32,685 nucleotides of DNA from an uncultured Actinomycetes bacterium. Lineage in GTDB: Bacteria > Actinomycetota > Actinomycetes > UBA12327. The first letter of the stretch is position 1; each line of letters opens with the position of its first letter. The position numbers were made by a program, and so were the translations under genes. The stretch spans positions 1-32,685 of the forward strand of contig CAIXNN010000024.1 of NCBI GenBank assembly GCA_903920865.1, written 5' to 3'. Below, piece after piece: positions 1 through 16,039 of this stretch. Under the pieces are notes generated by a model. The model worked only from the letters and a program-made list of their open reading frames with translations. It made no database searches and was not told the origin of the DNA.

Positions 1-183
1 GCGGTGATCTATATCGCGGCTGGTCGGGTTGATTGGGAACCAGCCTTGTTGCTCCTAGCTTCTTCGGTCGTAGGGGGCTTTGTCGGTGCTCGCGTCGGCT
101 TACGAGTCCCAGACGTGGCCGTGCGTTGGATCGTCATCGTGATGGGCACTGCGGCCTCGATTGGCCTGTTTGTTCGGGGCTAG
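1..183 (+). CDS. C-terminal fragment of a membrane protein, possibly TauE/SafE (TSUP) family permease; 5' end outside the window
   Basis: Frame 1 is open from base 1 to TAG at 181-183: AVIYIAAGRVDWEPALLLLASSVVGGFVGARVGLRVPDVAVRWIVIVMGTAASIGLFVRG*; hydrophobic, GGFVGARVG pattern typical of TSUP C-termini. Confidence 0.6.
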   Translation, partial: AVIYIAAGRVDWEPALLLLASSVVGGFVGARVGLRVPDVAVRWIVIVMGTAASIGLFVRG

Positions 184-356: not shown

Positions 357-1181
357 ATGGGCGAAACCATGGTGACTGTTGAAGAGTTGGTAGCCCAGAG
401 CGGCCCCGTTGATGTCACGTGGGTCTATGAACAATGGCGCGAGAAGTTGGCCGGTTTGCTTGCCAAGCTCGAGGATCGATTTGAGTTGCACCTTGACCCC
501 TCAACCAAAGGCCTGGAGATTGCAGGCGAAATCGGCTCGGGGATTCATGGTCAGGTGCAGTGCTTCGCGGGCCCGGAAATCGACTGGATGGTTTATTCCT
601 GGATGGCCGACCCCAAGCGAGGATTCGCCAACCTGCACATCACGATCAGCCCAGGCCCTCAGGTTGACGTGCCCTTGTTCGGGATGGCGTTTGCTTGCTT
701 CGGAGAGCGTCCGTGGGGCTTTATTGACTACGGGGCACGTCGCGAAGCAGCAGTAAACACCGACTATTACTTTAAGTATTACGAGCCGCTCAATGAGCGC
801 TGGCTGAACGTTCGTCGCGACAACCCGCAACTTGACTGGTTCATGTCGCCCTCAGGCTATGTGCGGCAAGTGCTTTCGCCGATTGCATTTTGTTACTCCG
901 GGCCTCCAGAGCAACGCACAGTTGACGTCATCCAAGGCGAAGCCGAATACATGCTTGATGAGTGGTTGAAGATGTTTGATGAAGCCGACCCGGTTCCTGT
1001 TGAAGAGCAGGCGGAGTTGTGCCAATACACCGAAGACTGGCGTTCCACGGTTGCGCGCCTTGACCCAGCCAACAGCGTCGCTGTGAAGCTCTTTGGTCAG
1101 GACATCTGCGACCAACTGGTGGTTGCCTTGGGTGGCACCGAACGCACCTTGCCGCACGCTGGCAAGTTCTGGACCAACTAG
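357..1181 (+). CDS. Red chlorophyll catabolite reductase (RCCR)-like / ferredoxin-dependent bilin reductase superfamily protein
   Basis: ATG preceded by AGAGGAGG RBS. Central block DYGARREAAVNTDYYFKYYEPLNERWLNVRRDNPQLDWFMSPSGYVRQVLSPIAF resembles the RCCR region with pattern D..xR...DY...YE....P...F.S..Y.R.V.SP.A; C-terminal YTEDWRSTVARLDPANSVAVKLFGQD resembles the FDBR C-terminal helix (Y..yR....DPA.....LFG). Confidence 0.7.
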   Translation: MGETMVTVEELVAQSGPVDVTWVYEQWREKLAGLLAKLEDRFELHLDPSTKGLEIAGEIGSGIHGQVQCFAGPEIDWMVYSWMADPKRGFANLHITISPGPQVDVPLFGMAFACFGERPWGFIDYGARREAAVNTDYYFKYYEPLNERWLNVRRDNPQLDWFMSPSGYVRQVLSPIAFCYSGPPEQRTVDVIQGEAEYMLDEWLKMFDEADPVPVEEQAELCQYTEDWRSTVARLDPANSVAVKLFGQDICDQLVVALGGTERTLPHAGKFWTN

Positions 1182-1199
1182 AAATTCACAGAGACGACG

Positions 1200-2195
1200 A
1201 TGAGTGAAAAGGATTTTCTCGTTCGTTCCCTCTGGGACGCAGTAAAAGTTGACGGTTTGGAAGCTCCGTACGACACGGCGCACCTGCGTATCTACTACGC
1301 AGCAACGAATCCCAACACTCTTGAAGTCGACATGTCGGGAATTATGCCGGCGGCCAAGCGGTCGCCGGCACCTGTCGTGCTGTTTCTTGGTGGCGTCAAC
1401 ATTGGTCAGGATTCACTGCGTTGGTTGATGATCAACTTGGTGGAAGCCGGCTACGTGTGCGTCACCTTCGATCTGGTGGGCGAACAGATGCCAGGTTTTT
1501 ATGGCACCACACCAGGTCTTGATTTATCCGCTCTGCAAGCGGGTGTTTATGGCACTCGACCGCCATCGATTGCGATCCAGCCCATCCTTGACCGCTTGGC
1601 AGTTCTTAACGCCGAAGGCACCTTGGCTGGTGTCATGGATTTGGATCGCCTCGTTCTTGGCGGGCATTCGGGTGGCGGAACCGTTGCGCTGGAATCTGCG
1701 CGCCGGGCGTACTTCCCGTCTCTGCGAGCCGTCGTGGCCTACGCGGCTCACACTGTGCCGGCTCAAGTTCTTGGCCACCCCGATGGCACGGTTCTCGAGT
1801 GCGCTTCTGATATCCCTGCCTTGTTGATGGCAGGCACCGAAGACGGAACGATGAAGCGCAGTGCAGCTCGGTACCCAGGTCAGGACCCAGCAACCTTCAA
1901 CCCCATCATCATGACGTTTGAGCAGGGCATTCCCGGTGGCCGCGATGACGCGTGGTTTGTCCAGTGGGATGGTGCCAACCATTTTGGGATGGGCTATCCG
2001 TTGGACCCCACCTGCGCGCGGGGATTTCTTGACAGCGAACCAACAACCGATCCCGCGCAAACGCGAGCCGATCTCACAGCGCTCATTGTTGATTTTCTTG
2101 ATGCGTATGTCCGAGCAGATGTTGGTGCAGCAACAGCCTTAGAAAAGTTCCAGAGCGATCCCCCCAACACCGTCAAAGAAGTGCGTCGTCGATAA
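1200..2195 (+). CDS. alpha/beta hydrolase (dienelactone hydrolase/chlorophyllase-like fold)
   Basis: VVLFLGGVNIG near the N-terminus, nucleophile elbow GGHSGGG, ALLMAGTEDG acid region, GANHFGMGYP histidine region; 18 bp downstream of the previous ORF. Confidence 0.75.
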   Translation: MSEKDFLVRSLWDAVKVDGLEAPYDTAHLRIYYAATNPNTLEVDMSGIMPAAKRSPAPVVLFLGGVNIGQDSLRWLMINLVEAGYVCVTFDLVGEQMPGFYGTTPGLDLSALQAGVYGTRPPSIAIQPILDRLAVLNAEGTLAGVMDLDRLVLGGHSGGGTVALESARRAYFPSLRAVVAYAAHTVPAQVLGHPDGTVLECASDIPALLMAGTEDGTMKRSAARYPGQDPATFNPIIMTFEQGIPGGRDDAWFVQWDGANHFGMGYPLDPTCARGFLDSEPTTDPAQTRADLTALIVDFLDAYVRADVGAATALEKFQSDPPNTVKEVRRR

Positions 2196-2231: not shown

Positions 2232-3470
2232 ATGTTGAAAAACTTCTGGTGGCCCGTAGAGATTGCCAGCGCGGTTACTCATAAGCCTCTGCCTATGACG
2301 GCAGTCGGGCAGAAGTTCGTGCTGTGGCGCGATGGGGAAGGCAAAGTGCATTGTCTCAATGACATGTGCGTTCACCGAGGCGGTTCGTTCGGAGTCGGAT
2401 GGCTATCGGAGGACAAGAACAGAGTCGTGTGCTCGTACCACGGTTGGGAGTTCGGTGGCGATGGTGCATGTACCAAGATCCCGGCACACCCACAGCGTGG
2501 AATTCCTAAAAAGGCACGCGTTGACTCGTATCCAGTCGTCGAACGCTACGGCCTGATCTGGGCTTTCCTCGGCGATCTTCCTGAAGACGAGCGCCCACCG
2601 TTGCCCGAGATTCCTGAACTCGAAGACCCTCGTTTCAAAAAGGTGTACGGCGAGTTCTGGTGGGACGTCAACTACGAGCGAGCGTTGGAAAATGGGATGG
2701 ACCCATCCCACGCGGCCTATGTTCATGGCAACCGCTTCGGCGATCTTGATAATCCGCAAATCCCGGACTTCGAAGTGCAAACCACGCCTTGGAGCGGGTT
2801 ATCCACGATTCCGTTGTATCCACCACCGGGTAACTCGAAGGGTAAGTGGGGGCGGGCATTCCGCAAATCGTTGCCCGAAGGTGAGACCAATCATTTGGCT
2901 GAAACTCGCGCTGGGTTCTTCTTGCCCAACATGAACTTGTTGAGTGTCCCGCTGCCTTTTGGCGAGATGGTCTTGTTCGATGCTCACGTGCCGATCTCGC
3001 AGAACCGCACGCGCACGATCTACATAGGTATGCGTACTTTCTTGAAGAGTGACTGGGGGGACAAGGACACCCACAAGCGCATTCACTACATCTTCAAGCA
3101 GGACGATGACGTGATTCGCGTTCAGCGCCCAGAAATGATTCCGTACAACCTCTCGGATGAGCTCCCGGTTCGCTCTGATGCATTGCAAGTGGCCTACCGC
3201 CGCCGCCGTGCCGAGTTGATCGACCAGGGCTGGGGCGTTGACATGCACCAGATCGTTGGCGATGGGCCCCGAGATGTTGCCGTGGTTATTCCCTCACCTG
3301 AGCGTCGCAACAACCCAGAGTTGGCGAATGCCTGGGTGCACAAGGAAGTGCAGTCCGCACAGATGCTCGGATTGGATCGGGAACGCAAGGTTAAGGCCGG
3401 CGGGTACCTGGAAAATCAGGCAGACGATGGCACCTCGGTGCTGGGCGTGACATCCGGGACGACCGTCTAG
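2232..3470 (+). CDS. Rieske [2Fe-2S] non-heme iron oxygenase alpha subunit, PaO/VanA-like
   Basis: Rieske motif CVHRGGSFGVGWLSEDKNRVVCSYHGW (C-x-H...C-x2-H); mononuclear iron motif ENGMDPSHAAYVH (D-x2-H-x4-H); IPELEDPRFKK segment resembling PaO. Confidence 0.93.
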   Translation: MLKNFWWPVEIASAVTHKPLPMTAVGQKFVLWRDGEGKVHCLNDMCVHRGGSFGVGWLSEDKNRVVCSYHGWEFGGDGACTKIPAHPQRGIPKKARVDSYPVVERYGLIWAFLGDLPEDERPPLPEIPELEDPRFKKVYGEFWWDVNYERALENGMDPSHAAYVHGNRFGDLDNPQIPDFEVQTTPWSGLSTIPLYPPPGNSKGKWGRAFRKSLPEGETNHLAETRAGFFLPNMNLLSVPLPFGEMVLFDAHVPISQNRTRTIYIGMRTFLKSDWGDKDTHKRIHYIFKQDDDVIRVQRPEMIPYNLSDELPVRSDALQVAYRRRRAELIDQGWGVDMHQIVGDGPRDVAVVIPSPERRNNPELANAWVHKEVQSAQMLGLDRERKVKAGGYLENQADDGTSVLGVTSGTTV

Positions 3471-3487: not shown

Positions 3488-3616
3488 CACAAGGCAAGCG
3501 TCTGGTTCGGGTCTAGACTCTCATCAGCCGCTTCCTTGTGGGGCGCCTAAAGGTTTCTCGCACATCATTCGCCTCGCCCTTGACTGCCCTGGGGCGCTTT
3601 GGAAGGTACACACGCA

Positions 3617-4621
3617 ATGACTGATCAAGGCACTTCTTCTGGCGCTGCGAATGCAGCTAATGCCCCGATTTTCGTCAATACAGGAATCGAAGCCCCCAGC
3701 GAATGGCAAAAGGTGATTGAAGGCACCTGGCATGGCCGCCCATCAATCTTTGATGGCGAAGGCACCCACGTGGGGTATGAAAACGTGGCGCGCGCCAGCG
3801 AGTTTTCCAACGGTCAGACGCACTACTGGATGAACACCAAGTTCGATGGTGGCGGGCACCTGCGTAGTCGTCTTGAGCTCGGTGGAATGTTCTCGTTCGG
3901 TGTCATTGATTCGGACCAAAATCGGATTTACACCGGCCCTGACTTCTTCGGCGCTGGGCAGCCTTACGGCACGTTCGTTGACTCGAACTACTACTCCCAG
4001 GGGTGGCAAGCTGACCTGGTGACGTGGAACTACGTCATGCCTGGCACAGACGTTCAGGTGTACTCCTCGGTCTGTTATGACGGCTGGACTCCCGCAGTGA
4101 TTTTTAACGGTCTGTACCTGCGCACGTTCGATCACGAGACCAACCCAGAAACCGCGAAGCGCGTTCAAGAGTTCAAGGACCAAGAAGAGGCCTTGGGTGA
4201 GATGAACTTCGTTACGCCAACCAAGCAGCGCGGCGCTTGGCGTGGGACCGTTGAGGTATTCGGTGCGGACCAGCAGCTCATCGGTCACAGCGAAGTCGTG
4301 ATTGACCACGAGCCCCTGGATCTGATTCGCTCCCGCCAAACGGTGACCTGGAGTGGAGTCCTGGAGCGCCAGTACACCTTTGAGCGCGTGCGCCTCGAGC
4401 ACAAGACGATGTTCCACGGCCCAGACATGTGGGGCAACCAGATGGCGTACGGCCGTTGTGCGTTCACCGCTCAGCACTTCACTAACGAGGCCACCAAGAT
4501 CAAGGGCCGAGAGTTCATGTTGAACTACGACTACGAATTGGTCGTTAACTGGCAAGTCTCTGACGGCAACGGGTTGACCCATGTCGTAGTGGGCGTCTTG
4601 ACCTGGGAGCCTGCGGGCTAA
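3617..4621 (+). CDS. Hypothetical protein, internally duplicated, possibly lipocalin/nitrobindin-like beta-barrel (paralogue 1)
   Basis: ORF 3599-4621, more probable ATG at 3617 (MTDQGTSSG). Extensively similar to the next gene (SEWQK.I.G.WHGRP..FD.EG.HVGYE..ARASE; GPDF.G.GQPYG.FVD..YYS.GWQADL.TWN). Confidence 0.75.
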   Translation: MTDQGTSSGAANAANAPIFVNTGIEAPSEWQKVIEGTWHGRPSIFDGEGTHVGYENVARASEFSNGQTHYWMNTKFDGGGHLRSRLELGGMFSFGVIDSDQNRIYTGPDFFGAGQPYGTFVDSNYYSQGWQADLVTWNYVMPGTDVQVYSSVCYDGWTPAVIFNGLYLRTFDHETNPETAKRVQEFKDQEEALGEMNFVTPTKQRGAWRGTVEVFGADQQLIGHSEVVIDHEPLDLIRSRQTVTWSGVLERQYTFERVRLEHKTMFHGPDMWGNQMAYGRCAFTAQHFTNEATKIKGREFMLNYDYELVVNWQVSDGNGLTHVVVGVLTWEPAG

Positions 4622-4747: not shown

Positions 4748-5722
4748 ATGACCGCGGTGAGTGATCGCAGTAATACCGCCAGCGAGCCCAGCGAATGGCA
4801 AAAGAAGATCGCAGGGGAATGGCACGGTCGTCCCGGTTTGTTTGATGCTGAGGGCAACCACGTGGGCTATGAGCGCATTGCGCGCGCCAGCGAGGTGTTG
4901 CCTGACGGCACCACGGTCTATTGGATGAATGGCACTCTGGACGGTTCCGGGCCACTGCGCAACCGCTTCCAACTCGGCGCAGACTTCCGCTTTGAAGTCA
5001 TCGATTCAGATGAGAACCGCGTGTACATGGGTCCCGACTTCTATGGCACGGGCCAGCCCTACGGCTTGTTCGTTGATGCTCATTACTACTCGCCTGGATG
5101 GCAAGCCGACCTTCGTACGTGGAACCAAGTCCTGCCGGATGGCAAGACCCAGGTCTACTCATCGGTCTTGCACGACGGCTGGAGCGTGTGCGCGGTATTT
5201 AACGGCCTGTACAAGGTCGTCGACATCGGCGCGAATGACCAAGAAACGCAAGGTTTCATCGATACCTGGATCCGCGACGAGACCAACCGTGCCCCCCGTC
5301 CGCACGTGCTTCCCACTAAGCAAAAAGGTGCATGGACCGGCACCCTTGAGGTCTACGACGCCGCATCGCAAGAAAAGGTTGGCGATAATTTCGTGACCAT
5401 CGACCATGAGCCGCTATCTCTGGTGCGCACTAAGCAGACGATTACATGGGAAGGTGCGATCAACCGCAAGTACTCCTTTGAGCGCCTTCGTCGTGACCAG
5501 AACACCACCTACGATGGACCAGACATCATGGGCAACGCACGTAACTATGGCCGCGCGTTGTTCACCAGCCAGCACTTCACCGGTGGGGATGTGTGGAAGA
5601 TTAAGGGTCGTGAATACCTACTAGATGACTCGCAGTCATTGAGCATCGTGTGGGAAGCATTTAAGGGCGACATGCTCACAAACGTTATTTTCGGACAGTT
5701 GGATTGGAAGGCACAAGCATGA
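4748..5722 (+). CDS. Hypothetical protein, internally duplicated, possibly lipocalin/nitrobindin-like beta-barrel (paralogue 2)
   Basis: Collinear similarity over its full length to the 3617-4621 product; ends with a 4-bp ATGA overlap with the SDR gene. Confidence 0.75.
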   Translation: MTAVSDRSNTASEPSEWQKKIAGEWHGRPGLFDAEGNHVGYERIARASEVLPDGTTVYWMNGTLDGSGPLRNRFQLGADFRFEVIDSDENRVYMGPDFYGTGQPYGLFVDAHYYSPGWQADLRTWNQVLPDGKTQVYSSVLHDGWSVCAVFNGLYKVVDIGANDQETQGFIDTWIRDETNRAPRPHVLPTKQKGAWTGTLEVYDAASQEKVGDNFVTIDHEPLSLVRTKQTITWEGAINRKYSFERLRRDQNTTYDGPDIMGNARNYGRALFTSQHFTGGDVWKIKGREYLLDDSQSLSIVWEAFKGDMLTNVIFGQLDWKAQA

Positions 5723-6549
5723 GCGAGAACCGTTCCGTCGTCGTCACTGGTGGAACCCGTGGCATTGGCCAAGGATTAGTGCGCGAGTTCATCAAGGCGG
5801 GTTGCCGCGTCACCTTCACTGGATCCAGTGAAGCATCCACGGCTAAGGGTCTGGAGGCTTTGGGTGGAGCCACGGCTAACCTGACTGCTAAGGCGTGCAA
5901 CATCACCGATCGCGACCAGGTTCAAGCGGTATGGGATCACGCCGTTGCTACCTACGGTCGCGTGGACATCTGGATTAACAACGCGGGTATTTCGTTGCCC
6001 CGCAAGCCTTTTCAGGAGCACACGGTTTCGGACCTTCAGGAAATCGTTAACACCAACATCGTGGGGATCTTCAACGGTGATGCGGTGGCCATGAAGGGCA
6101 TGTTGGCCCAAGGTTCTGGTTACATCTGGAACATGGAGGGCTTCGGTTCCAACGGTCAGACCAGTTCAGGCCTTGGACCCTATGGCTCAACGAAGCGCGC
6201 TTTGAACTACCTCACGAAAGTGCTCATCAAGGAGCTCAAGGGCACTGGCGTGGGCATGGGTTACCTCAGCCCAGGCATTGTGGCCACTGACCTGCTCATC
6301 CAAGACTATGAAGACGACATGGCGCAGTGGGAAAAGGTCAAGAAGACCTTCAATATTCTCGGCGACACTGTTGAAACTGTCACTCCTTACCTCGTTGAGG
6401 GTGTTTTGAAGACGGACAAGAACGGCAAGCGCGTTGCTTGGCTGACTCCCGCAAAAGCTGGTGGACGCTTCGCGACAGCAGGCTTTAAGAAGCGGAACTT
6501 GTTTGACCAGATAGATCCCCGAAAGACGATGGATCAACAAGGGGCCTAG
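5719..6549 (+). CDS. Short-chain dehydrogenase/reductase, NYC1/NOL (chlorophyll b reductase)-like
   Basis: TGGTRGIG cofactor motif, IWINNAG, YGSTK (YxxxK); NMEGFGSNG...YGSTKRAL...SPGIVATDLL and NILGDTVETVTPYLV...LTP resemble NYC1/NOL. Start chosen at ATG 5719 (ATGA overlap) rather than 5704. Confidence 0.85.
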   Translation: MSENRSVVVTGGTRGIGQGLVREFIKAGCRVTFTGSSEASTAKGLEALGGATANLTAKACNITDRDQVQAVWDHAVATYGRVDIWINNAGISLPRKPFQEHTVSDLQEIVNTNIVGIFNGDAVAMKGMLAQGSGYIWNMEGFGSNGQTSSGLGPYGSTKRALNYLTKVLIKELKGTGVGMGYLSPGIVATDLLIQDYEDDMAQWEKVKKTFNILGDTVETVTPYLVEGVLKTDKNGKRVAWLTPAKAGGRFATAGFKKRNLFDQIDPRKTMDQQGA

Positions 6550-6598: not shown

Positions 6599-7300
6599 AT
6601 GGCAGCGCAGGAGTGCGTGACCTATCCATTAGCTCTGGCTCTCGAAGACGTTGTTCCCATTGTGTTAGCCGGCTTTGGTTATTGGTATTTGTCCAAGCGG
6701 GTTAGCGATGATTTTGACGGAGCGCGTTCGGTAGCCCTAGCAATGAAGATTGCTGCATTCTTGTTAGTTCTGTGTTCCTTTATTGCTGGGCCAGTGCGCA
6801 AGATCCTTTCCCATGCAGCAGCGGTTCCCATTTGTGCGCCAGATTTTGACGTTCCCTATTCGCAACTTCAGATCCCCTTTGTGAGTGCACTCGCGCCCGG
6901 ATTCGCGCTACTGACCTGGGGAGTGATCTGTACTCTCCGCTCGCGCAAGGTGGCTTTTTGGCCCTTTGTGGCGCTCCTAGCCTTGGGCGTTGTCGGGGCT
7001 GTGGCTGCTGGTGAGCGAACCATCTTGTTTGCTGTTGGGGGATTGTGGGCAACGGCTTTGGCCGTTTCGACCGGAATCCTTGCCTCTCGCCAACGCGATT
7101 TTGTGGCAACGGGACTCTTTGCCCTATACGCGTTGGGTACTTTGGCCCTACCGCCGATCAGCTCTAAAGGGAATGTTTCTGATGTAAAAGTTCAGTGGTT
7201 GGCACAAGGGATCAATACGGCTACTCAAGCCATCTTCCTTTATGCCTGCTATCGACTGGTCACTGGTTTTGTCCGACAATCCAAAGGCACACATAGTTAG
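6599..7300 (+). CDS. Multi-pass membrane protein of unknown function
   Basis: 233 aa with about six or seven hydrophobic segments; co-directional and tightly spaced in the cluster; no family recognised. Confidence 0.65.
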   Translation: MAAQECVTYPLALALEDVVPIVLAGFGYWYLSKRVSDDFDGARSVALAMKIAAFLLVLCSFIAGPVRKILSHAAAVPICAPDFDVPYSQLQIPFVSALAPGFALLTWGVICTLRSRKVAFWPFVALLALGVVGAVAAGERTILFAVGGLWATALAVSTGILASRQRDFVATGLFALYALGTLALPPISSKGNVSDVKVQWLAQGINTATQAIFLYACYRLVTGFVRQSKGTHS

Positions 7301-7311
7301 GGAGATCACGC

Positions 7312-8058
7312 ATGGCAGATCAACTCGCTTTCCGCAAGAAGTTTGGTGTCTTGGCACCAAGTACCAACTCCATCGTTGAGCCGGACTTCAATCGCATGGG
7401 TGTTCCCGGCGTTACACCGCTGTTTAGTCGCATTCATATTTATGACCAAGACCTGTCGACCGAGGCCCAGATGGAAAAGTTGCGTGTCCAACTCGATGAG
7501 TCCTTGGACTACGCCATTGATCTGGTCTGCACGGCCGAAGTTGATTACATGGTCATGGGAATGTCGGCTGAGACCTTCTGGGGCGGCGTTGCGGGCAATG
7601 ACTACTTCAAGTCACGCGTCAAGGAACGTTCGGGCGGGCTTGATGTGGCCACCGGTGCCGAAGGGTGCCAAAAGGTCCTCAACAGCTACAACGTCAAGTC
7701 CATCTCTGTTGTCACGCCGTATCAAGAAAACGGTGACCGAGAGGTCATCAATTACTTTGAGGAGATCGGCTTCGAGGTCAAGAAGTTGATCGGCCTCAAG
7801 CGTCCGACCGCGGTTTCCATTGCGCACACCACGGAAGACGAACTTCGCGATGCCCTCATTGAACTCAACGAGAGCGGTGCCGAGGCGATCGTCCAGGTGG
7901 GCACGAACTTGTCCATGGTGCGCTTGGCCGCTGAGGCTGAGCGCTGGTTCCACAAGCCGGTTGTGGCTATTAATGCTGCGACGTGGTGGATGGCACTTCG
8001 CGAGAACGGAATCAATGACAAGCTCTACGGCTTTGGCCGCATGTTTGAGGACTTTTAA
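7312..8058 (+). CDS. Asp/Glu racemase superfamily protein (maleate isomerase/arylmalonate decarboxylase-like)
   Basis: FGVLAPSTNSIVEPDFNRM N-terminus, YMVMGMSAETFWGG loop, VVTPYQENGDREVINYFEEIGFEV, IVQVGTNLSMVRLAAEAE. Confidence 0.8.
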   Translation: MADQLAFRKKFGVLAPSTNSIVEPDFNRMGVPGVTPLFSRIHIYDQDLSTEAQMEKLRVQLDESLDYAIDLVCTAEVDYMVMGMSAETFWGGVAGNDYFKSRVKERSGGLDVATGAEGCQKVLNSYNVKSISVVTPYQENGDREVINYFEEIGFEVKKLIGLKRPTAVSIAHTTEDELRDALIELNESGAEAIVQVGTNLSMVRLAAEAERWFHKPVVAINAATWWMALRENGINDKLYGFGRMFEDF

Positions 8059-8074: not shown

Positions 8075-9505
8075 TTATGGAACTAAGGGTTGATCTCCAG
8101 TTCCAAATCGGAAGCAACCCTTATCAGTCCTGTCGCTAAGCGTGCAGGAGTTATCCCAGTACAAGCCCTTGACTGTGGTCACTCCTGCATATTGGCCAGT
8201 GCTCCAATTAGTCCCGTAGGCAACAGCCGAGGTATAACTTGAGCCCAAAGACCACATGGCGTTCTTAAAGGCGTTTGGAGTCAGATCCTTGGGCGCCTTG
8301 TCCAAGGCTGATTTCAGCAGCAAAGTCGCATCGCAGAATTGCATGACCACTCTGTAGTTCTCTCGCTTACCTTCCGGTGGGGCAGCCCCAGCACCGTCGA
8401 TGATTTGCTTGCACAAACCTTCATTGGGTCGGGCTGGGTCTGGGAAGGGTTCAGTTGAAGAATCAGCTCGCATATCGGAGGATGGTGAGAAGCCCAAACC
8501 GGCCATACCTACACGCGCTTCGGGAACGATGGTGCCAGGATTGTCGACAAAGAATGCTGGGTTGTCGTAGGAAGTAATGCTGTAACGGGCCTTCAGGTCT
8601 TGGGCTTCACTGGAGGACAGGGCAACAGCCAAGATCCGCTCACCACCGATCGTCAGTACCCGATCTAGTCCTTTGTTCTTAGCGCCGGTGAGAGCGGCCG
8701 ATGAAGTCGCACCCAAGGTTCCAATATTGGAGATATCAATGAAGTAGTTAGCCGACTTCGTGACACCGATGCTTTGTAGGTAGGGCGCAACAATGCTCGT
8801 ACTAACTCGTCGTGAAACCTCAGTATCAGGGGCCAGAACAGCAACTCCCTGCGCCCCGTCAAACCAGCCAGAATTTTTCAATGTGACAAGCAGGTTCTTT
8901 ACGAAGGTGTCGAAGTTTGGTAGGGACGTTGACCACAGGTAAGGACTGTATTCGTTGAATTCTTGTTGGTCGTGAGGGACGTAGGTTTGGTCCAACATGA
9001 TGGCGCGAGCGGATTTGTAGCAGGGGCGGGCGTTATTTTGGAACTGACCGTCCATCGCAATGGCGAAAACCTGAGAGTCTTGAGTGAAGGCCCGACATTG
9101 TGCTTCGGCGTAGTCGGGTGCATCGTTTTGACCGAGGTAGGGCTTAATGATCGGATTAATTTTACGCCCGCCAACACCACCATTAGTGTTGACGTAATTC
9201 ACGACGGCTTGAATGCCCTTACTCGTGACGTCAAAGCCACCATCTTCGATGTTCTTGAACCCAAGGTTCTTGGAGAGCTCTCCAATGTCAACCACGAGAT
9301 ACCCCACGTTGACGGTGTCGGCTGTAACTCCAGGCGAGGCTTGATCTGCGCCACCACCGGCAGCATTGGCAGCGCCAGCGCCAGCGCCACTTCCACCCTG
9401 GCCACTGTTACTTGATCCCTTGGACCCAGAACAGCCAGCGATTAAGGCCGCGCAGGCCAATAAGGCCACAACCGAGCGGAACATGGTTAAGCGTGACGAA
9501 TTCAC
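8075..9505 (-). CDS. Liv-type ABC transporter substrate-binding lipoprotein (periplasmic binding protein type 1), paralogue 1
   Basis: Signal peptide with lipobox LIAGC; SPGVTADTVNVGYLV, NGGVGGRKINPIIKPY motifs typical of LIV-BP family. Confidence 0.88.
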   Translation of the reverse strand: MNSSRLTMFRSVVALLACAALIAGCSGSKGSSNSGQGGSGAGAGAANAAGGGADQASPGVTADTVNVGYLVVDIGELSKNLGFKNIEDGGFDVTSKGIQAVVNYVNTNGGVGGRKINPIIKPYLGQNDAPDYAEAQCRAFTQDSQVFAIAMDGQFQNNARPCYKSARAIMLDQTYVPHDQQEFNEYSPYLWSTSLPNFDTFVKNLLVTLKNSGWFDGAQGVAVLAPDTEVSRRVSTSIVAPYLQSIGVTKSANYFIDISNIGTLGATSSAALTGAKNKGLDRVLTIGGERILAVALSSSEAQDLKARYSITSYDNPAFFVDNPGTIVPEARVGMAGLGFSPSSDMRADSSTEPFPDPARPNEGLCKQIIDGAGAAPPEGKRENYRVVMQFCDATLLLKSALDKAPKDLTPNAFKNAMWSLGSSYTSAVAYGTNWSTGQYAGVTTVKGLYWDNSCTLSDRTDKGCFRFGTGDQPLVP

Positions 9506-9526
9506 GGCGTACCTCCACCTCCTAGG

Positions 9527-12376
9527 TTACGACACAGAGGCGGTAAATGGACCCGAACGCTCAACTGCGGTCATATCTGCGCCCAAGTAGGAGCGAACAA
9601 CGTCTGGGTGGTTACGAACTGCCTCAGGGGTGCCCTCTGCGATAACCCCGCCCAATTCCATCGCCACCACTCGTTGGGCCAAGCGGAAGAGCAAAGGCAG
9701 GTCGTGCTCGACCACTACCAGAGTTGTTCCAAGGTCGCGGTTTACTCCAGTCAGGAGCTGGACCAGGCTTTCGCCTTCTGATTGGGCAATCCCACCGGCT
9801 GGCTCGTCCAAGAGGAGAACCTGTGGGTCTAGCGCGAGCATGGACGTGATCTCGACCATTCGCCGTGTTCCGGTGGATAGTTCACCCACCGGTTTTGCTT
9901 GCAGATTGTCCAGGCCCATGACCTCGAGATATTGCAAGGCCCTCTTACGCTTTGATCGGTCAGCCATGGGAAGTCCCAACAGGGATGAAGTAACGCTGGT
10001 AGGTGATGTGCGCTCCATGGCCACCATTACCGTCTCCAGCACGCTCATCGTTGGGTACAAGCGGGCTGCTTGGAAGGAACGCACCAGACCCAATTTGGCT
10101 CGTGCATCGGGGGCCAACTTGGTGATGTCACGACCATTGAAAACGATTGAACCCGCATCGGGTGAGGTAAACCCAGCGATGATTTCAAACAGTGTGGTCT
10201 TACCTGCACCGTTGGGACCGATGATGCCAAGAATTTCTCCTGGCTGAACGGAGATGTCGACACCGTTGACTGCTTTGATGCCGCCAAAGGCAAGCGATGC
10301 TCCGGTGACCTGAAGGATCGGTGGCAGTGACGTCGGATCGATCCCAAGGAAGGGGTCGCGACCTGAGTTTTGCTTGAGCGGGCTGACATCAATGATTGAG
10401 ATCCGTCGGTCTTCACCCTCCGTCTTACCCTCATCGGCACGGATGGCGGCCTGCGCATCAACACCTTGCAGTCGAGCTAAACCGAATGCGGCCTTGTTGC
10501 GCACCCGAACCAAAAGACCACCCAAACCACGTGGGATCAACACGATGATGATGACCGAGAGCAAGATCAACAGCGGTGGGATGAATTCGTTAAGTGTCAC
10601 CAGTTGTGGGACGCGACTGTAGAGGGCTCCGATAGCAGGACCAGGCAGAACTCCAAGTCCACCGAGGACTGTTTGCGAAACCACGTCAACACTGAATCCG
10701 CCCTTGAAGTAATCAGGGGTCAAGGTTGTCACCGAGTTCGCGATCACTACACCACCGAGTCCGGCCAGCCCACCGCTAATGGCGAAAGTTTGCAGTTTGC
10801 GCTTCGGGGCAGCAATGGTGAAAGCGCGCGCAGCATTTTCGTTATCCCGCAGCGCGCGAAGTACTCGCCCTAATCCGGTACGACGGATATTGGCCGATAC
10901 AAGAAAAGCTAGGACTAGGAATATCAGGGAGAAGAGGAAGTAATTCTTTGGAAATGAGAAGTCGACGTCAAGGCCAGGAATTTCAAGGGGCTGAACTTTG
11001 ATACCGGAAGCTGTTGGACCGATCAGGAAACTTTGGCGTAGGAACCAAGCGGAGGTCGCAAACGAGAACGCCAAGGTGCTCACAGCTAGCGCGAGTCCAC
11101 GCAGACGCAACGCCGGGATTCCCACTAAGGCTGAGGTGATCGCTCCTGCCACGATGCCGGCAAGAACACCGAGGAAGAACTGTCCTGTTGAGGCCGACAC
11201 TCGAACCGCCACGGTTCCAGCGATAGCAGCGAAGGCAAATTGACCAAGTGAGAGTTGACCAGCAATTCCGGTCAAGACTCCAACAGACAATCCCACGATC
11301 GTGAAACCGACTGCGAAAGTAAGGATGGTTGCGATCTTGTTTGTGACGGTGAGTCCGATATAGATCGTGGCGCCTAGGGCGATCACAGAGATGATCGGAG
11401 TGATGATGCGTACGGTAAACAGATTACGCACCTGACTTGGCAATCCTGGTGGGTACAACTTGTTCCATTCGCCGCGGTCTTCGTCTCGGCGAGAAGAAAG
11501 TTTTGGTTGAAGCAGAAGTCCAAGAAATACCACGATGACTAATGCCAGTTGAGCTAAACCAACTTGGTCCTGATTGCTGGTCAGAATCTGCGCAACTACA
11601 CCGATAATCACGGAAGAGAAAAATGCCACCGGTAAGTTTTGGAATCGGCCTAGCACCGCACCGGCTAGCGGTAATACGAGCAAGGATGGTCCGAGGAAGT
11701 CAGCATCGGGCAGGTTGATCGTTGGGTAAACCAAGATCACCGAGAAGGCCGCGATGGCGCCGGCGATTCCCCACGAAAGGGTCACCATTCGGCTCGCCGT
11801 TACCCCGGCAAGGGAGGCCGCATCTGGGTTGTCCGCAGCAGCGCGGATGGCAAGTCCGTAGCGGGAGCGTCGAAGGAACAGCGATAGGGCCAATAGCACC
11901 AGAGGAGCAAGCAGGACGATGGTGATGAACGAGGGTGAGATAGAAATTGTTCCAAGTTTGACGTTTGTCAAAAAGCCAGGAAGTACGGGCTTGGGGAAGA
12001 GCCGGCCGGTGGCATTTTTTTGGTTAACGACAAGGCCGAAAATGATCAGGAACTGGGCCAAGCCAAGAGTTACCACCGTGCCAAGAACGCGCGGCGCATC
12101 AGAGATGCGGCGAACAAATCCCCACTCGACCCCTGATGCGATAAATGCGCCGGCCAAAATCCCCACGGGGAAGAAGACCCAATAGGGAACTCCACGGGAG
12201 ACGACTGCACTGAAGATGGATGCAGCAAAAATTCCAATCGCTACGTGAGCGAAGTTGATAAAGCGGCTGGCCCGATAAACCAGTACTAACCCGATCGATA
12301 GCAGTCCGTAGAGGAACCCGGTGAAGACTCCGCTGAGGATGTTGGCGAAGGAAAGGTCGAAACTCGAAAGGCTCAT
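9527..12376 (-). CDS. Fused branched-chain amino acid-type ABC transporter: LivH permease + LivM permease + LivG ATPase
   Basis: 949 aa: LivH-like N-terminus (GLLSIGLVLVYRASRFINFAH), LivM-like middle (GIAGQLSLGQFAFAAIAG, GLGRVLRALRDNENAARAF), C-terminal ATPase (GPNGAGKTT Walker A, LSTGTRR signature, VLLLDEPAGG Walker B). Confidence 0.93.
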   Translation of the reverse strand: MSLSSFDLSFANILSGVFTGFLYGLLSIGLVLVYRASRFINFAHVAIGIFAASIFSAVVSRGVPYWVFFPVGILAGAFIASGVEWGFVRRISDAPRVLGTVVTLGLAQFLIIFGLVVNQKNATGRLFPKPVLPGFLTNVKLGTISISPSFITIVLLAPLVLLALSLFLRRSRYGLAIRAAADNPDAASLAGVTASRMVTLSWGIAGAIAAFSVILVYPTINLPDADFLGPSLLVLPLAGAVLGRFQNLPVAFFSSVIIGVVAQILTSNQDQVGLAQLALVIVVFLGLLLQPKLSSRRDEDRGEWNKLYPPGLPSQVRNLFTVRIITPIISVIALGATIYIGLTVTNKIATILTFAVGFTIVGLSVGVLTGIAGQLSLGQFAFAAIAGTVAVRVSASTGQFFLGVLAGIVAGAITSALVGIPALRLRGLALAVSTLAFSFATSAWFLRQSFLIGPTASGIKVQPLEIPGLDVDFSFPKNYFLFSLIFLVLAFLVSANIRRTGLGRVLRALRDNENAARAFTIAAPKRKLQTFAISGGLAGLGGVVIANSVTTLTPDYFKGGFSVDVVSQTVLGGLGVLPGPAIGALYSRVPQLVTLNEFIPPLLILLSVIIIVLIPRGLGGLLVRVRNKAAFGLARLQGVDAQAAIRADEGKTEGEDRRISIIDVSPLKQNSGRDPFLGIDPTSLPPILQVTGASLAFGGIKAVNGVDISVQPGEILGIIGPNGAGKTTLFEIIAGFTSPDAGSIVFNGRDITKLAPDARAKLGLVRSFQAARLYPTMSVLETVMVAMERTSPTSVTSSLLGLPMADRSKRKRALQYLEVMGLDNLQAKPVGELSTGTRRMVEITSMLALDPQVLLLDEPAGGIAQSEGESLVQLLTGVNRDLGTTLVVVEHDLPLLFRLAQRVVAMELGGVIAEGTPEAVRNHPDVVRSYLGADMTAVERSGPFTASVS

Positions 12377-14634
12377 GAGATGTAGTTTCCCTTCGAATCG
12401 GCGTCAGCTTTTGTTGTGGACAGGTCGTTGCCCGGTCCTGAGGGCGAGTCCTTTTCAGGAACCCCACCCAAACTCAATGTTTGGACAAGGTCAGGTTGGG
12501 CCAGCAGGTCTTTAGAAAGGCCTTCGTAGACGATCTCGCCCTTTTCCATGAAGTAACAGCGATCAACCAGATTGAGGGCCACATTGACTGACTGCTCGAC
12601 GACCAAGATGGCCGTACCACGGGAGTTGAGCTCACGAACCATTCCTAAAAGCTCTCCAACCACGATGGGCGCAAGGCCCAACGAGAACTCGTCAACAACC
12701 AGAACCTTCGGCTTGGTGATTAAGGCCTTGGACAGGCCCAACATTTGTTGTTCACCGCCACTGAGGGTGGAGCCAAGTTGGTTTCGCCGGTCGGCAATCT
12801 TGGGGAAGATCTCGAAAGCTTCTTCAATGCCAGCCTTTACGCTTGCCCGATCGCGTCCCAAACTAAATCCGTACATCGTCAAGTTTTCGTAAACGGTCAT
12901 CGATCCGAAGACTGCATTGCCACCAACGATTTGAGATAGGCCGAGGGTTACTCGCCGGCTAGCTCCAAGGTCAGTGACATTTTCGCCGGCTAAGCGGACG
13001 ACACCGCCCTGTGGTTTTTCAAGTCCGGAGAGCACGCGCAACAAGGTGGTCTTGCCAACCCCGTTGGGGCCAAGTAATGCGACCATTTCGCCTTCATTGA
13101 CTCGCATGGAAACGTCAAAGAGGACCTGCACGGAACCGTAAGCAAAGTCAACATTTCGAGCAGAAAGGATCGGCGCTTGACCGGATTCGCTAACGCCTTC
13201 ATCGAAGGATTGGGAATCCTCGTCGACACCCAGACGCGTATCAAGATCTGGCCCAGCAGCGCGAATGAGCTTCTTTGATCGTCTCCAAAACAGCAAAACC
13301 GGAAGGCTTGCAGCAGCGAAGGCGATCACGTAGCCGGTCGAACTGTTGATGAGAGCACTAACAGCGCTGATCAACAACAAGCCCACAAGACCGCCACCGA
13401 TAAGCGAAAAGACGGACAGTCCAGCTGCGGCTGCTCGATCTTCAGGTTGGAGCGCTGAGAAGACGGTGATGTCCAATGCGACCCAAGCCAGGTAGGCCCC
13501 GATTCCAGCAAGTGCCAGTTGGGGCGAGATGATTTTTGGAAGCAGACCCGTGAGCACAATGCCAGCAAAAGCAAGAATCAAGCCGAGCGAAATAACAGCA
13601 GCAAGACCCTCTGGAGATTTTTGGTGAGTCTTTTCTAGTCCGCGTGAGGCGAGGAGCAAAATCAGTGCGCTGACCAGGCTAGAAATCGCGATCACCAATG
13701 CTGGAGTCGAGATGTAGAGATCCTTGGCCTTGGCAAGGCGAACAATCGGAATGATCAGTGCCGCACTGGTGCACCAACCAACGGCGACATAGGCCGTTAA
13801 GGAAAATCGCAGGGTAGGAATAGAGCTGATCCGCACAATTGATTCGGCCCACGTGGGTCGAAGTTCAAATACGGGGTCGTGAACCTTCCCCAGTGCTCGC
13901 CGAATGCGATTTGGTTCGAAGCCTCCGACAGCGGTGTCGGTAAGTAAGAAGGAACCCAGCGACAAAATGACACCGAGCACGCCAGCGACCACGAGTGCTT
14001 GACCCACGCCAATATTGAGGGCAGTTGTTGCTAGCCAAGCGCAAAGGCCACCTGCTGCAGCTCCAAGCAGGGTGCCAATGTGGGTGCGAGCAAGGGTGCG
14101 TGCGCGAGCCTCAGGAACGGTGGCGTCAAAGGCCAAGGTGCGAATAATTGGCGCGCTGAGTCCGAACAAGGTGCCACGGCCAAGGCCGATGACAAGGAAA
14201 ATGACGATGCCGGGAATTAAATTCGCCAGCAGGGCTAGAAGCGCGGCATTAATACTGAGAACAATGGCTGCGGCCACACGTTTTGCTGGCGGCACTCGAT
14301 CGCTCAGTGGCAACCCCAACAATGCTGCCAAGATGGCACTTGCAATCAGGGTTACGCCGTAAAGGGTTGTTGAACTTTTCGTATCGCGCGCTACAAGCGG
14401 CAAGAGCAGAAGCAAAGTGGTCAAGGGCAATGAGAACGATGCATTGATTAAACCAAGCGCGAGCACGCGTCGGCGTCCACTGCGTGGTACTGCCTCACGC
14501 CAGCGGGGGATTTGGGTTTGACCCTTGACACCTATGGCGCTTCGAGCAGCTTCGCGCACCGATGTTTCAATCACGGCAGGTTTGTCCGCGACAAGAACCG
14601 GCGGGCTAGTTGGTAGCGAAGGGGACATTCCCAC
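12373..14634 (-). CDS. Fusion of an MFS-like permease domain with a LivF-type ABC ATPase domain
   Basis: 753 aa: about 12 hydrophobic segments in the first ~460 aa with an MFS-like loop (GLPLSDRVPPAKR), then GPNGVGKTTLLR Walker A, LSGGEQQML signature, VLVVDEFSLGLAP Walker B. 4-bp overlap with the downstream gene; ATG at 14628 is an alternative start. Confidence 0.88.
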   Translation of the reverse strand: MGMSPSLPTSPPVLVADKPAVIETSVREAARSAIGVKGQTQIPRWREAVPRSGRRRVLALGLINASFSLPLTTLLLLLPLVARDTKSSTTLYGVTLIASAILAALLGLPLSDRVPPAKRVAAAIVLSINAALLALLANLIPGIVIFLVIGLGRGTLFGLSAPIIRTLAFDATVPEARARTLARTHIGTLLGAAAGGLCAWLATTALNIGVGQALVVAGVLGVILSLGSFLLTDTAVGGFEPNRIRRALGKVHDPVFELRPTWAESIVRISSIPTLRFSLTAYVAVGWCTSAALIIPIVRLAKAKDLYISTPALVIAISSLVSALILLLASRGLEKTHQKSPEGLAAVISLGLILAFAGIVLTGLLPKIISPQLALAGIGAYLAWVALDITVFSALQPEDRAAAAGLSVFSLIGGGLVGLLLISAVSALINSSTGYVIAFAAASLPVLLFWRRSKKLIRAAGPDLDTRLGVDEDSQSFDEGVSESGQAPILSARNVDFAYGSVQVLFDVSMRVNEGEMVALLGPNGVGKTTLLRVLSGLEKPQGGVVRLAGENVTDLGASRRVTLGLSQIVGGNAVFGSMTVYENLTMYGFSLGRDRASVKAGIEEAFEIFPKIADRRNQLGSTLSGGEQQMLGLSKALITKPKVLVVDEFSLGLAPIVVGELLGMVRELNSRGTAILVVEQSVNVALNLVDRCYFMEKGEIVYEGLSKDLLAQPDLVQTLSLGGVPEKDSPSGPGNDLSTTKADADSKGNYIS

Positions 14635-16039
14635 CTCGGTATAGGAAGCATCCGGGCTTTCCGGACACGGGGTTTAAACAGGTCGTTGAGTCAAAAACCA
14701 GTACCCGGCCAGTGTTAGTGGCTGCGTACTTACCGTTGGCCAGGGTTCCGCCAAAGGTGACTGCTGAACTGTATCCCGTTCCCACCTGCCATGCCGCGTC
14801 ACGGAAGGCGTTGGCGGTTAAGTTTTTAGGCGCCTTGTCGATGACGGCCTTGAGGAACAAGGTGGCGTCGCAATATTGCAGGCCTTCCTTGTAATTGGGC
14901 CGGACTCCATCGGGAGGTGTAGCACCGGCGGAATCAATGATTTGCTTGCAAAGCCCCTGGTTTGGGGTGGCTGGGTCTGGGAATGGGACAGCTGGATCTT
15001 CACGAATATCGCCCGCTGGCAACACACCGAATCCGGTCATTCCCACCAAAGTTGATGAAACTTCAAGGCTTGGGTTGTCTTGTAGGAACAGCGGGCTGTC
15101 GTAAGAGGAAATAGCGAATTTTGCCTTCGTGGTGGTTGCTTCTTGAGTGGACAACATCACCGGCAAGATGCGAGCACCGCCGATGACGATGACCCGATCA
15201 AGGCCGGCATTAGCTGTGCCGGTGAGCGCTGCCGATGAGCCAGCACCCAAGGTGCCAGCATTGGAGGTATCAACGAAGAATGATTGCGACTTCGTAATCC
15301 CATTGCTTGTAAGAAACGGGATTACGATGTCAGTGATGTTGCGTCGAGCAATCTCGTTATCAACTCCGACTATGGAAACACCGGCCGTACCGGTAAACCA
15401 GCCTTGGGACTGCAATGCGGCTAATTCGGTGCGCAGGTAACTGCTGTACTCGGGCCACGTGGGCGACCACAGGTACGGCGAAAGGCGTTCAAATTCGGTC
15501 TGATCTTGGGCTAGGAGCGTCTCGTCAATCATCAACGTCTTGCGGGCCGCGTAGCAAGTTCTGGCATTACTTTGGAACTGCCCTTCGAGAACAACGGCGA
15601 AAACCTGTTCGTCTTGGGTGAAGGCGTTGCAGAAGGATTCCGCGTATTCGGGACTGTCTTGTCCTCCGCCGTAGGTTTTGATGATGGGGACAATCTTGCG
15701 ACCGTTGAGCCCGCCGTTAGCGTTGACTGCGTTAACTAAGGCTTCAATTTGCTTGGTCTCGCCCGCCACCCCGCCGTAGTTGGCGGTCTTAAACCCAAGC
15801 TGTTCTGAGAGGACTCCGAGGTCGGGCAGCAGGTAGCCGATCTTGATGGAATCTGCGGTAACCCCTGGTGAGGCATCATTTCCGCCCGCAGTAATTCCTG
15901 ACCCCGAGGAACCCGAGTTAGCCGTCGAATTTGACTTTGAACTGCAGGCGGTGGTCAGTGCGGCAATGAGTGCTAGGACCGCGATGGTGGTAGCAACCCG
16001 ACGCGCAGGCCCTGGGGTTCGCACAGCGGTTGGGGACAT
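14606..16039 (-). CDS. Liv-type ABC transporter substrate-binding lipoprotein, paralogue 2
   Basis: Signal peptide with lipobox-like ALTTAC; collinear with the 8075-9505 product (SPGVTADSIKIGYLLPDLGVLSEQLGFK; GLCKQIIDSAGATPPDGVR.NY). Confidence 0.88.
   Translation of the reverse strand: MSPTAVRTPGPARRVATTIAVLALIAALTTACSSKSNSTANSGSSGSGITAGGNDASPGVTADSIKIGYLLPDLGVLSEQLGFKTANYGGVAGETKQIEALVNAVNANGGLNGRKIVPIIKTYGGGQDSPEYAESFCNAFTQDEQVFAVVLEGQFQSNARTCYAARKTLMIDETLLAQDQTEFERLSPYLWSPTWPEYSSYLRTELAALQSQGWFTGTAGVSIVGVDNEIARRNITDIVIPFLTSNGITKSQSFFVDTSNAGTLGAGSSAALTGTANAGLDRVIVIGGARILPVMLSTQEATTTKAKFAISSYDSPLFLQDNPSLEVSSTLVGMTGFGVLPAGDIREDPAVPFPDPATPNQGLCKQIIDSAGATPPDGVRPNYKEGLQYCDATLFLKAVIDKAPKNLTANAFRDAAWQVGTGYSSAVTFGGTLANGKYAATNTGRVLVFDSTTCLNPVSGKPGCFLYRGGNVPFATN

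Follow-up and report, generated by a model that had tools for sequence, protein, structure and literature searches.

Vast amounts of chlorophyll are degraded every year, and the known plant pathway ends at linear phyllobilins. To our knowledge, it is an open question which microbes and genes finish phyllobilin breakdown, and we know of no enzyme of established function in the RCCR/FDBR sequence family that acts on anything other than an open-chain tetrapyrrole. We take RCCR, HY2, PebB, PcyA, PebA, PebS, and coproporphyrinogen oxidase to be known members of the superfamily, and Glu154 and Asp291 to be the catalytic residues of Arabidopsis RCCR. In plant chlorophyll breakdown, the Rieske monooxygenase PAO opens the ring and RCCR acts directly afterwards (PMC8219035). 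The open-access literature examined shows bacterial relatives of RCCR solely in the role of outgroup in phylogenies (including in PMC10151467). A search of that literature, with subscription journals and preprints outside its scope, returned no description of a bacterial gene cluster of the kind reported here.

We analyzed a stretch of 32,685 nucleotides from an uncultured Actinomycetes bacterium, hereafter the window, whose features are collected in Table 1. A sequence-only reading had assigned one open reading frame, RCCR1, to an RCCR-like reductase of the FDBR superfamily, and the motifs it quoted are present in the translated protein. RCCR1 scored 33 bits against the Pfam family RCC_reductase (PF06405), above the curated cut-off of 24.9, and 26.6 bits against Fe_bilin_red (PF05996), below the cut-off of 31 for FDBR membership. 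A phmmer search of the PDB placed Arabidopsis RCCR crystal structures at the top (E about 5e-4), and a profile built from 57 RCCR1 relatives found AtRCCR (E 2.7e-20) ahead of GtPEBB (3.7e-9) and HY2 (2e-5). PF06405 was matched by all 57 members at E <= 0.01 and PF05996 by 33 of them. The AlphaFold2 model (pLDDT 92, pTM 0.91) had RCCR as its best Foldseek match (3agb, E 1.1e-12, TM 0.68); ranks 1-7 were all RCCR, followed by HY2, PebB, PcyA, PebA, PebS, and lastly coproporphyrinogen oxidase. The resemblance is far greater than chance would give, and RCCR1 is a member of the RCCR family by sequence and by its alpha-beta-alpha fold. The Pfam, profile, AlphaFold2, and Foldseek results therefore bear out the earlier assignment, which had proposed the structural comparison itself and named a wrong fold or the lack of a superfamily match as evidence against it; neither arose.

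Table 1. Features of the window.
Feature	Position	Strand	Basis and remarks
TauE-like permease gene, 3' end	1..183	+	exact overlap with contig C72
RCCR1, RCCR-like reductase	357..1181	+	274 aa, ATG start, AGGAGG ribosome-binding site upstream
alpha/beta-hydrolase, serine esterase of PETase/DLH/chlorophyllase neighbourhood	1200..2195	+	331 aa; Pfam Abhydrolase_6
Rieske non-heme-iron oxygenase, VanA_C type	2232..3470	+	412 aa; Pfam Rieske and VanA_C
X1, double calycin-like beta-barrel protein	3599..4621	+	TTG start 3599, ATG at 3617; family A7
X2, double calycin-like beta-barrel protein	4748..5722	+	324 aa; AlphaFold2 and Foldseek
Short-chain dehydrogenase/reductase (SDR)	5719..6549	+	Pfam adh_short 1e-39
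Multi-spanning hydrophobic protein, cluster-conserved	6599..7300	+	homologues in 40 loci
EutA / arylmalonate-decarboxylase / maleate-isomerase superfamily protein	7312..8058	+	Pfam; 53/80 loci
Branched-chain-amino-acid-type ABC importer, candidate uptake system	8075..16039	-	Pfam
Importer binding proteins	8075-9505 and 14606-16039	-	Pfam
Importer permease-permease-ATPase fusion	9527-12376	-	Pfam
Importer MFS-like and ATPase fusion	12373-14634	-	Pfam

To compare active sites, the chain-to-protein numbering of AtRCCR was anchored on the F218V mutant chain. In profile alignments, A111 of RCCR1 shared a column with AtRCCR Glu154 and with the GtPEBB Asp equivalent to PcyA Asp105, and this column was Ala in 55 of 57 family members. 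D236, in the DPxN block, aligned with AtRCCR Asp291 and with the Asp of GtPEBB 'DPAR', and was found in every member (57/57), as was each of E74, D76, and R128. H94 (56/57) aligned with a GtPEBB Asn, presumably the position of PcyA His88. As read from these columns, the active site of RCCR1 retains one acid, has lost one, and carries one His. The plant catalytic pair is represented by the equivalent of Asp291, with Ala at that of Glu154, and A111 likewise occupies the PcyA-type Asp105 position of the LFGxD segment.

The sequence-only reading was right in placing Ala at the PcyA Asp position and in likening the C-terminal block to FDBRs, and the mapping of RCCR catalytic acids that it proposed succeeded for Asp291 (D236) and gave Ala111 for Glu154. 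Its expectation that PcyA-type chemistry is absent is reasonable with Asp105 gone. However, the argument is weak: plant RCCR has its Glu154 in this very column, and loss of the acid casts equal doubt on plant-type RCCR chemistry. Moreover, pre-1 PcyA proteins are without Asp105, His88, and Glu76, and one of them nevertheless produced a small amount of phytochromobilin (PMC10151467), so a missing Asp105 equivalent is compatible with activity. That RCCR1 is an RCCR in the biochemical sense is not established by these alignments.

The cluster also encodes a second reductase-like family, C1, of 230-275 aa. The C1 profile found AtRCCR at E 0.022, PF06405 weakly matched 10 of 37 members, and hhalign aligned C1 with the RCCR-like family end to end (98.4% probability, E 7e-15). 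C1 has D91 at the Glu154/Asp105 column and D225 at the Asp291 column, both in 37/37. Judged by these positions, the cluster pairs an RCCR-like protein without one acid with C1, a relative in which both are present. In the window genome there are three RCCR-like and five C1-type genes, or eight superfamily members in 1.68 Mb.

Scanning 85,488 species genomes for RCCR relatives yielded 80 loci spread over Actinomycetia, Acidimicrobiia, Chloroflexota, and Pseudomonadota (including Gammaproteobacteria). Carriers included Actinomadura, Nocardia, Nocardioides, Streptomyces, Micromonospora, Nonomuraea, Mumia, Acidimicrobiia MAGs, Chloroflexota, Alteromonadaceae, and Pseudohongiella. C1 was carried by about 75 of these loci and the double-calycin protein by about 72. 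Within 10 kb of the RCCR gene, a Rieske oxygenase was present in 77 of the 80 loci, the serine esterase in 73, the SDR in 68, and a tandem nitrilase-type amidase in 65. These were followed by the EutA-like protein and an ALDH (53 each), an acyl-CoA-dehydrogenase-type flavoenzyme (50), and a PHBH-type FAD monooxygenase (46). RCCR, hydrolase, and Rieske genes occurred together in 73/80 loci and all nine core families in 37/80, with a median gap of -1 to +15 bp, often an overlap, between most adjacent core genes. With only 7 Rieske genes in the 1.68 Mb of the window genome, chance co-location with RCCR is negligible. No dedicated ferredoxin or reductase gene was found among the conserved neighbours. 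This conserved cluster, which the sequence-only reading left unmentioned, is stronger evidence, and a larger finding, than RCCR1 itself.

When the phylum was sampled evenly, only 2 of 398 other genomes carried the RCCR family. The RCCR-like family is rare and patchily distributed, and its gene neighbourhood is fixed. Branching in the bacterial RCCR tree agrees with phylum, class, and, for the most part, genus. A plasmid and a phage collection each gave no match, and spread by plasmid or phage was set aside. Placement of plant RCCR and GtPEBB in this tree was dropped since their branches were too long to trust. A class-mate genome (G057) carries most of the window's genes in the same order; the G057 contig is apparently the same as that of Planomonospora venezuelensis (L086). 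Two public MAGs titled 'Bifidobacterium breve' (L039 and L084) clearly belong with the window genome as relatives rather than to Bifidobacterium, and are apparently mislabelled.

Conserved catalytic residues in the Rieske oxygenase, esterase, and amidase make these look like working enzymes rather than relics. S157, D215, and H261 are invariant in the esterase family alignment, as are the Rieske ligands C46/H48/C67/H70 and D157/H160/H165/D291. In the tandem amidase, E43, K115, and C148 are invariant in the N-terminal half, and the C-terminal half is without Cys. Among 24 esterase family members, PETase was matched by 20 and Chlorophyllase weakly by 15 (best 2.9e-6). The window esterase scored 11.5 bits against PF07224 Chlorophyllase, whose cut-off of 26 rules it out as a true chlorophyllase, and its nearest PDB entries were polyester hydrolases. 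The nearest PDB entry to the Rieske protein was NdmA. A true PAO was ruled out, as VanA_C was present in 25/25 cluster Rieske proteins and the PAO C-terminal Pfam domain in 0/25.

The two X proteins are paralogues (52% identical) for which a Pfam search returned no family. The AlphaFold2 model of X2 (pLDDT 92.8) best matched plant BFA1 (5yvf, 7.5e-9) and cyanobacterial DUF3598 (2o62, 3.6e-8) in Foldseek, with the phycobiliprotein lyase CpeS (4tq2, 0.0099), nitrobindin, and lipocalins among lower matches. Calycins often bind tetrapyrroles, and the predicted fold is suggestive only of such a role for X. Kinship between X and RCCR was also considered, and hhalign showed nothing. In the EutA-like family, the first isomerase Cys is absent, ruling out a maleate isomerase; the second is kept in most relatives and is Val in the window protein. 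The adjoining hydrophobic protein is without a Pfam family, and in many loci its gene shows translational coupling with that for the EutA-like protein. Homologues of the importer occur in 23 of the 80 loci. Its architecture is unusual: a single 753-aa ORF joins an MFS-like membrane domain to an ABC ATPase of LivF type, and beside it lies the permease-permease-ATPase fusion.

The cluster does not end with the window. Its first 120 bp are identical to the last 120 bp of another contig of the same genome (C72, locus L018), inside the TauE-like gene, and in a relative (L021) a single contig carries the two halves in the same gene order; the cluster therefore continues upstream onto C72. Joined, the contigs make up a single large cluster that holds two RCCR genes, two Rieske genes, and the importer. 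The upstream part encodes RCCR2, two C1 proteins, a Rieske protein 67% identical to that of the window, a flavoenzyme, ALDHs, an isochorismatase-family amidase, a Dabb protein, and an AMDase-like protein. Also encoded there are a protein that exceeds the NCBIfam cut-off for the HMG-CoA-lyase family, a PrpB/PEP-mutase-family (methylisocitrate-lyase-like) lyase, and a CoA-transferase whose nearest match is succinate-glutarate CoA-transferase. Further upstream is an ORF with flavin-reductase and HMGL-like domains, and an IclR regulator and HpcH lyase lie around the cluster.

Directly after RCCR2 is a gene for a 224-aa protein (L018:11540-12214, minus strand) without a Pfam family, which was met with solely in genomes of the window's own family. 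Outside the cluster, on contig C13 of the window genome (L019:15496-16413), lies a third RCCR-like paralogue, which is divergent (25% identical); in every family member observed it adjoins a gene of alanine-racemase-like type, and it groups with a Pseudomonadota MAG (L118). Another contig of the genome carries a second, partial cluster (L020:3303-12719, on a contig also named C1) with a hydrolase, two C1 reductase-like genes, a tandem nitrilase, an NMT1-type binding protein, an FAD monooxygenase, and an ALDH.

Our reading, held with moderate confidence, is that RCCR1 is an RCCR-like reductase of bacterial type, encoded in a conserved operon that breaks down a tetrapyrrole pigment aerobically. 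This pigment is most likely chlorophyll-derived, either of pheophorbide/chlorophyllide type or a phyllobilin from plants or algae. Rieske and RCCR genes paired as in the plant pathway, in one operon with genes for an esterase, an SDR, and an importer, suggest that a tetrapyrrole is catabolised. The window genome, from a lake-type actinobacterium, has no match to Photo_RC, in agreement with the non-photosynthetic host proposed earlier and ruling out its own photosynthesis. Nor does it have a heme oxygenase (PF01126), ruling out a bilin pathway fed by that enzyme in this genome. Together these absences argue against self-made biliverdin as the substrate and make a scavenged chlorophyll-derived substrate the simplest reading.

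The analysis establishes the fold and family, the residues at the active-site columns, the cluster with its conservation, and the contig join; we infer the substrate, every reaction, and the order of steps of such a pathway. The ABC importer would take up the pigment or its fragments, the serine esterase would cleave a phytyl or methyl ester, and the Rieske oxygenase would open the ring or cut a methine bridge. The RCCR-like protein and C1 could then use ferredoxin as electron donor to reduce the opened product, while the double-calycin protein may bind the pigment. The SDR, flavin monooxygenases, and aldehyde dehydrogenases would trim the pieces, and amidases would open the resulting imides. 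Specifically, pyrrole rings, each with a methyl group next to an ethyl, vinyl, or propionate side chain, may be oxidised to dialkylmaleimides, which amidases would convert to dialkylmaleates. Hydration and cleavage of the PrpB/dimethylmalate-lyase type could yield pyruvate and a short acid, and the propionate ring could yield glutarate, matching the succinate-glutarate-type CoA-transferase. Methylisocitrate-lyase-like, HMG-CoA-lyase-like, and CoA-transferase enzymes would pass branched diacids to central metabolism. No hydratase for this lower pathway was identified, leaving a gap in the proposed chemistry. The full proposal is a bacterial pathway taking a chlorophyll-derived pigment to central metabolites in lake, soil, and other heterotrophs, by Rieske opening, paired RCCR-superfamily reductases with and without the usual acid, and amidases and lyases mineralising the fragments. 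It is a tentative one, which we judge somewhat more apt to fail than to hold as a whole.

Several observations favour tetrapyrrole catabolism, namely the RCCR/FDBR family and fold, a C1 protein with both acids, the conserved catalytic residues of the Rieske oxygenase, esterase, and amidase, Rieske beside RCCR in nearly all loci, the calycin fold of X with its weak bilin-lyase match, and the weak lean of the esterase toward Chlorophyllase. The predicted lower-pathway genes (CoA-transferase, PrpB-like, HMG-CoA, and HpcH lyases, IclR) and the ferredoxins present in the window genome fit as well. Counting against it are Ala at the Glu154/Asp105 column, a VanA_C rather than PAO domain, an esterase below the Chlorophyllase cut-off, and the lack of a dedicated ferredoxin or reductase neighbour. 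The lower-pathway genes also resemble those for other N-heterocycles. The cluster might alternatively be read as degrading a non-tetrapyrrole N-heterocycle or aromatic natural product, such as a pyridine, indole, or pyrrole compound, with both RCCR-superfamily proteins repurposed to reduce it. PnpA and HspB, the latter a pyridine enzyme, are the nearest matches to its FAD/flavin hydroxylase, its amidase, isochorismatase, and maleate-isomerase/AMDase-superfamily genes recall lower nicotinate-type pathways, and an IclR regulator with a liv-type importer is typical of small-molecule catabolism; the catalytic acid lost from the RCCR-like protein fits too. We nevertheless regard this as unlikely, if the most serious competitor, because two members of a tetrapyrrole-specific fold, one with both acids, are kept together, as is a double-calycin protein with weak likeness to bilin lyases.

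Breakdown of environmental heme-derived bilins (biliverdin, bilirubin, or urobilin types) is improbable. Family similarity does reach the biliverdin-reducing FDBRs, through PF05996 and GtPEBB, and His94 aligns with the GtPEBB Asn, presumably the PcyA His88 position. However, it is the RCCR family that every member matches, the window genome is without heme oxygenase, and the conserved oxygenase is a Rieske protein. That the RCCR-like gene serves biosynthesis of a pigment or secondary metabolite is very doubtful: many carriers are secondary-metabolite-rich actinomycetes, but the importer, CoA-transferase, C-C lyases, ALDHs, and IclR regulator are catabolic in type, and the gene is present also in a 1.68-Mb genome.

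Overall, the cluster looks like a pathway, so far undescribed, for the aerobic catabolism of tetrapyrroles, with chlorophyll-derived pigments as its most likely substrates. Its compact form in cultured strains of Actinomadura, Streptomyces, Micromonospora, and Nocardioides makes the question of microbial chlorophyll breakdown directly testable. If the reading is true, it would place RCCR in a bacterial setting and hint at where the enzyme came from.

Relative to known systems, the cluster is not of the kind formed by the pre-PcyA globin/V4R clusters (PMC10151467). RCCR1 shares its fold and similar central and C-terminal motifs with the FDBRs (PcyA, PebA/B/S, HY2, and pre-PcyA), including DPxN aligned to GtPEBB DPAR, but differs in having no Asp105 equivalent, a lower FDBR score, and a genome without heme oxygenase. 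The X proteins resemble DUF3598/BFA1 double-calycin proteins in predicted fold across both barrels, although identity is 9-12% and X comes from heterotrophs and has no Pfam match. Plant RCCR (Arabidopsis 3agb/2zxk) is like RCCR1 in exceeding the PF06405 cut-off, in sharing its fold over about 230 aligned residues, and in its invariant Asp291 equivalent and conserved SPSxxxRxxxSPxA segment. Both have a Rieske partner, a gene neighbour here and a pathway step in plants. In contrast, RCCR1 is only about 19% identical, has Ala for Glu154 and Leu at the Phe218 position, and lies in a bacterial operon. The cluster follows the plant PAO/phyllobilin pathway in its logic of esterase, Rieske monooxygenase, RCCR, and SDR. 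It departs from that pathway in its VanA-type Rieske protein, in an esterase that by cut-off is neither PPH nor chlorophyllase, and in the lack of a match to Staygreen (the Mg-dechelatase, PF12638) in 50 cluster genomes, a search run without a positive control and so given no weight in either direction. It also extends beyond the plant pathway, with a second RCCR-like protein, a calycin protein, an amidase, and putative ring-fragment catabolism.
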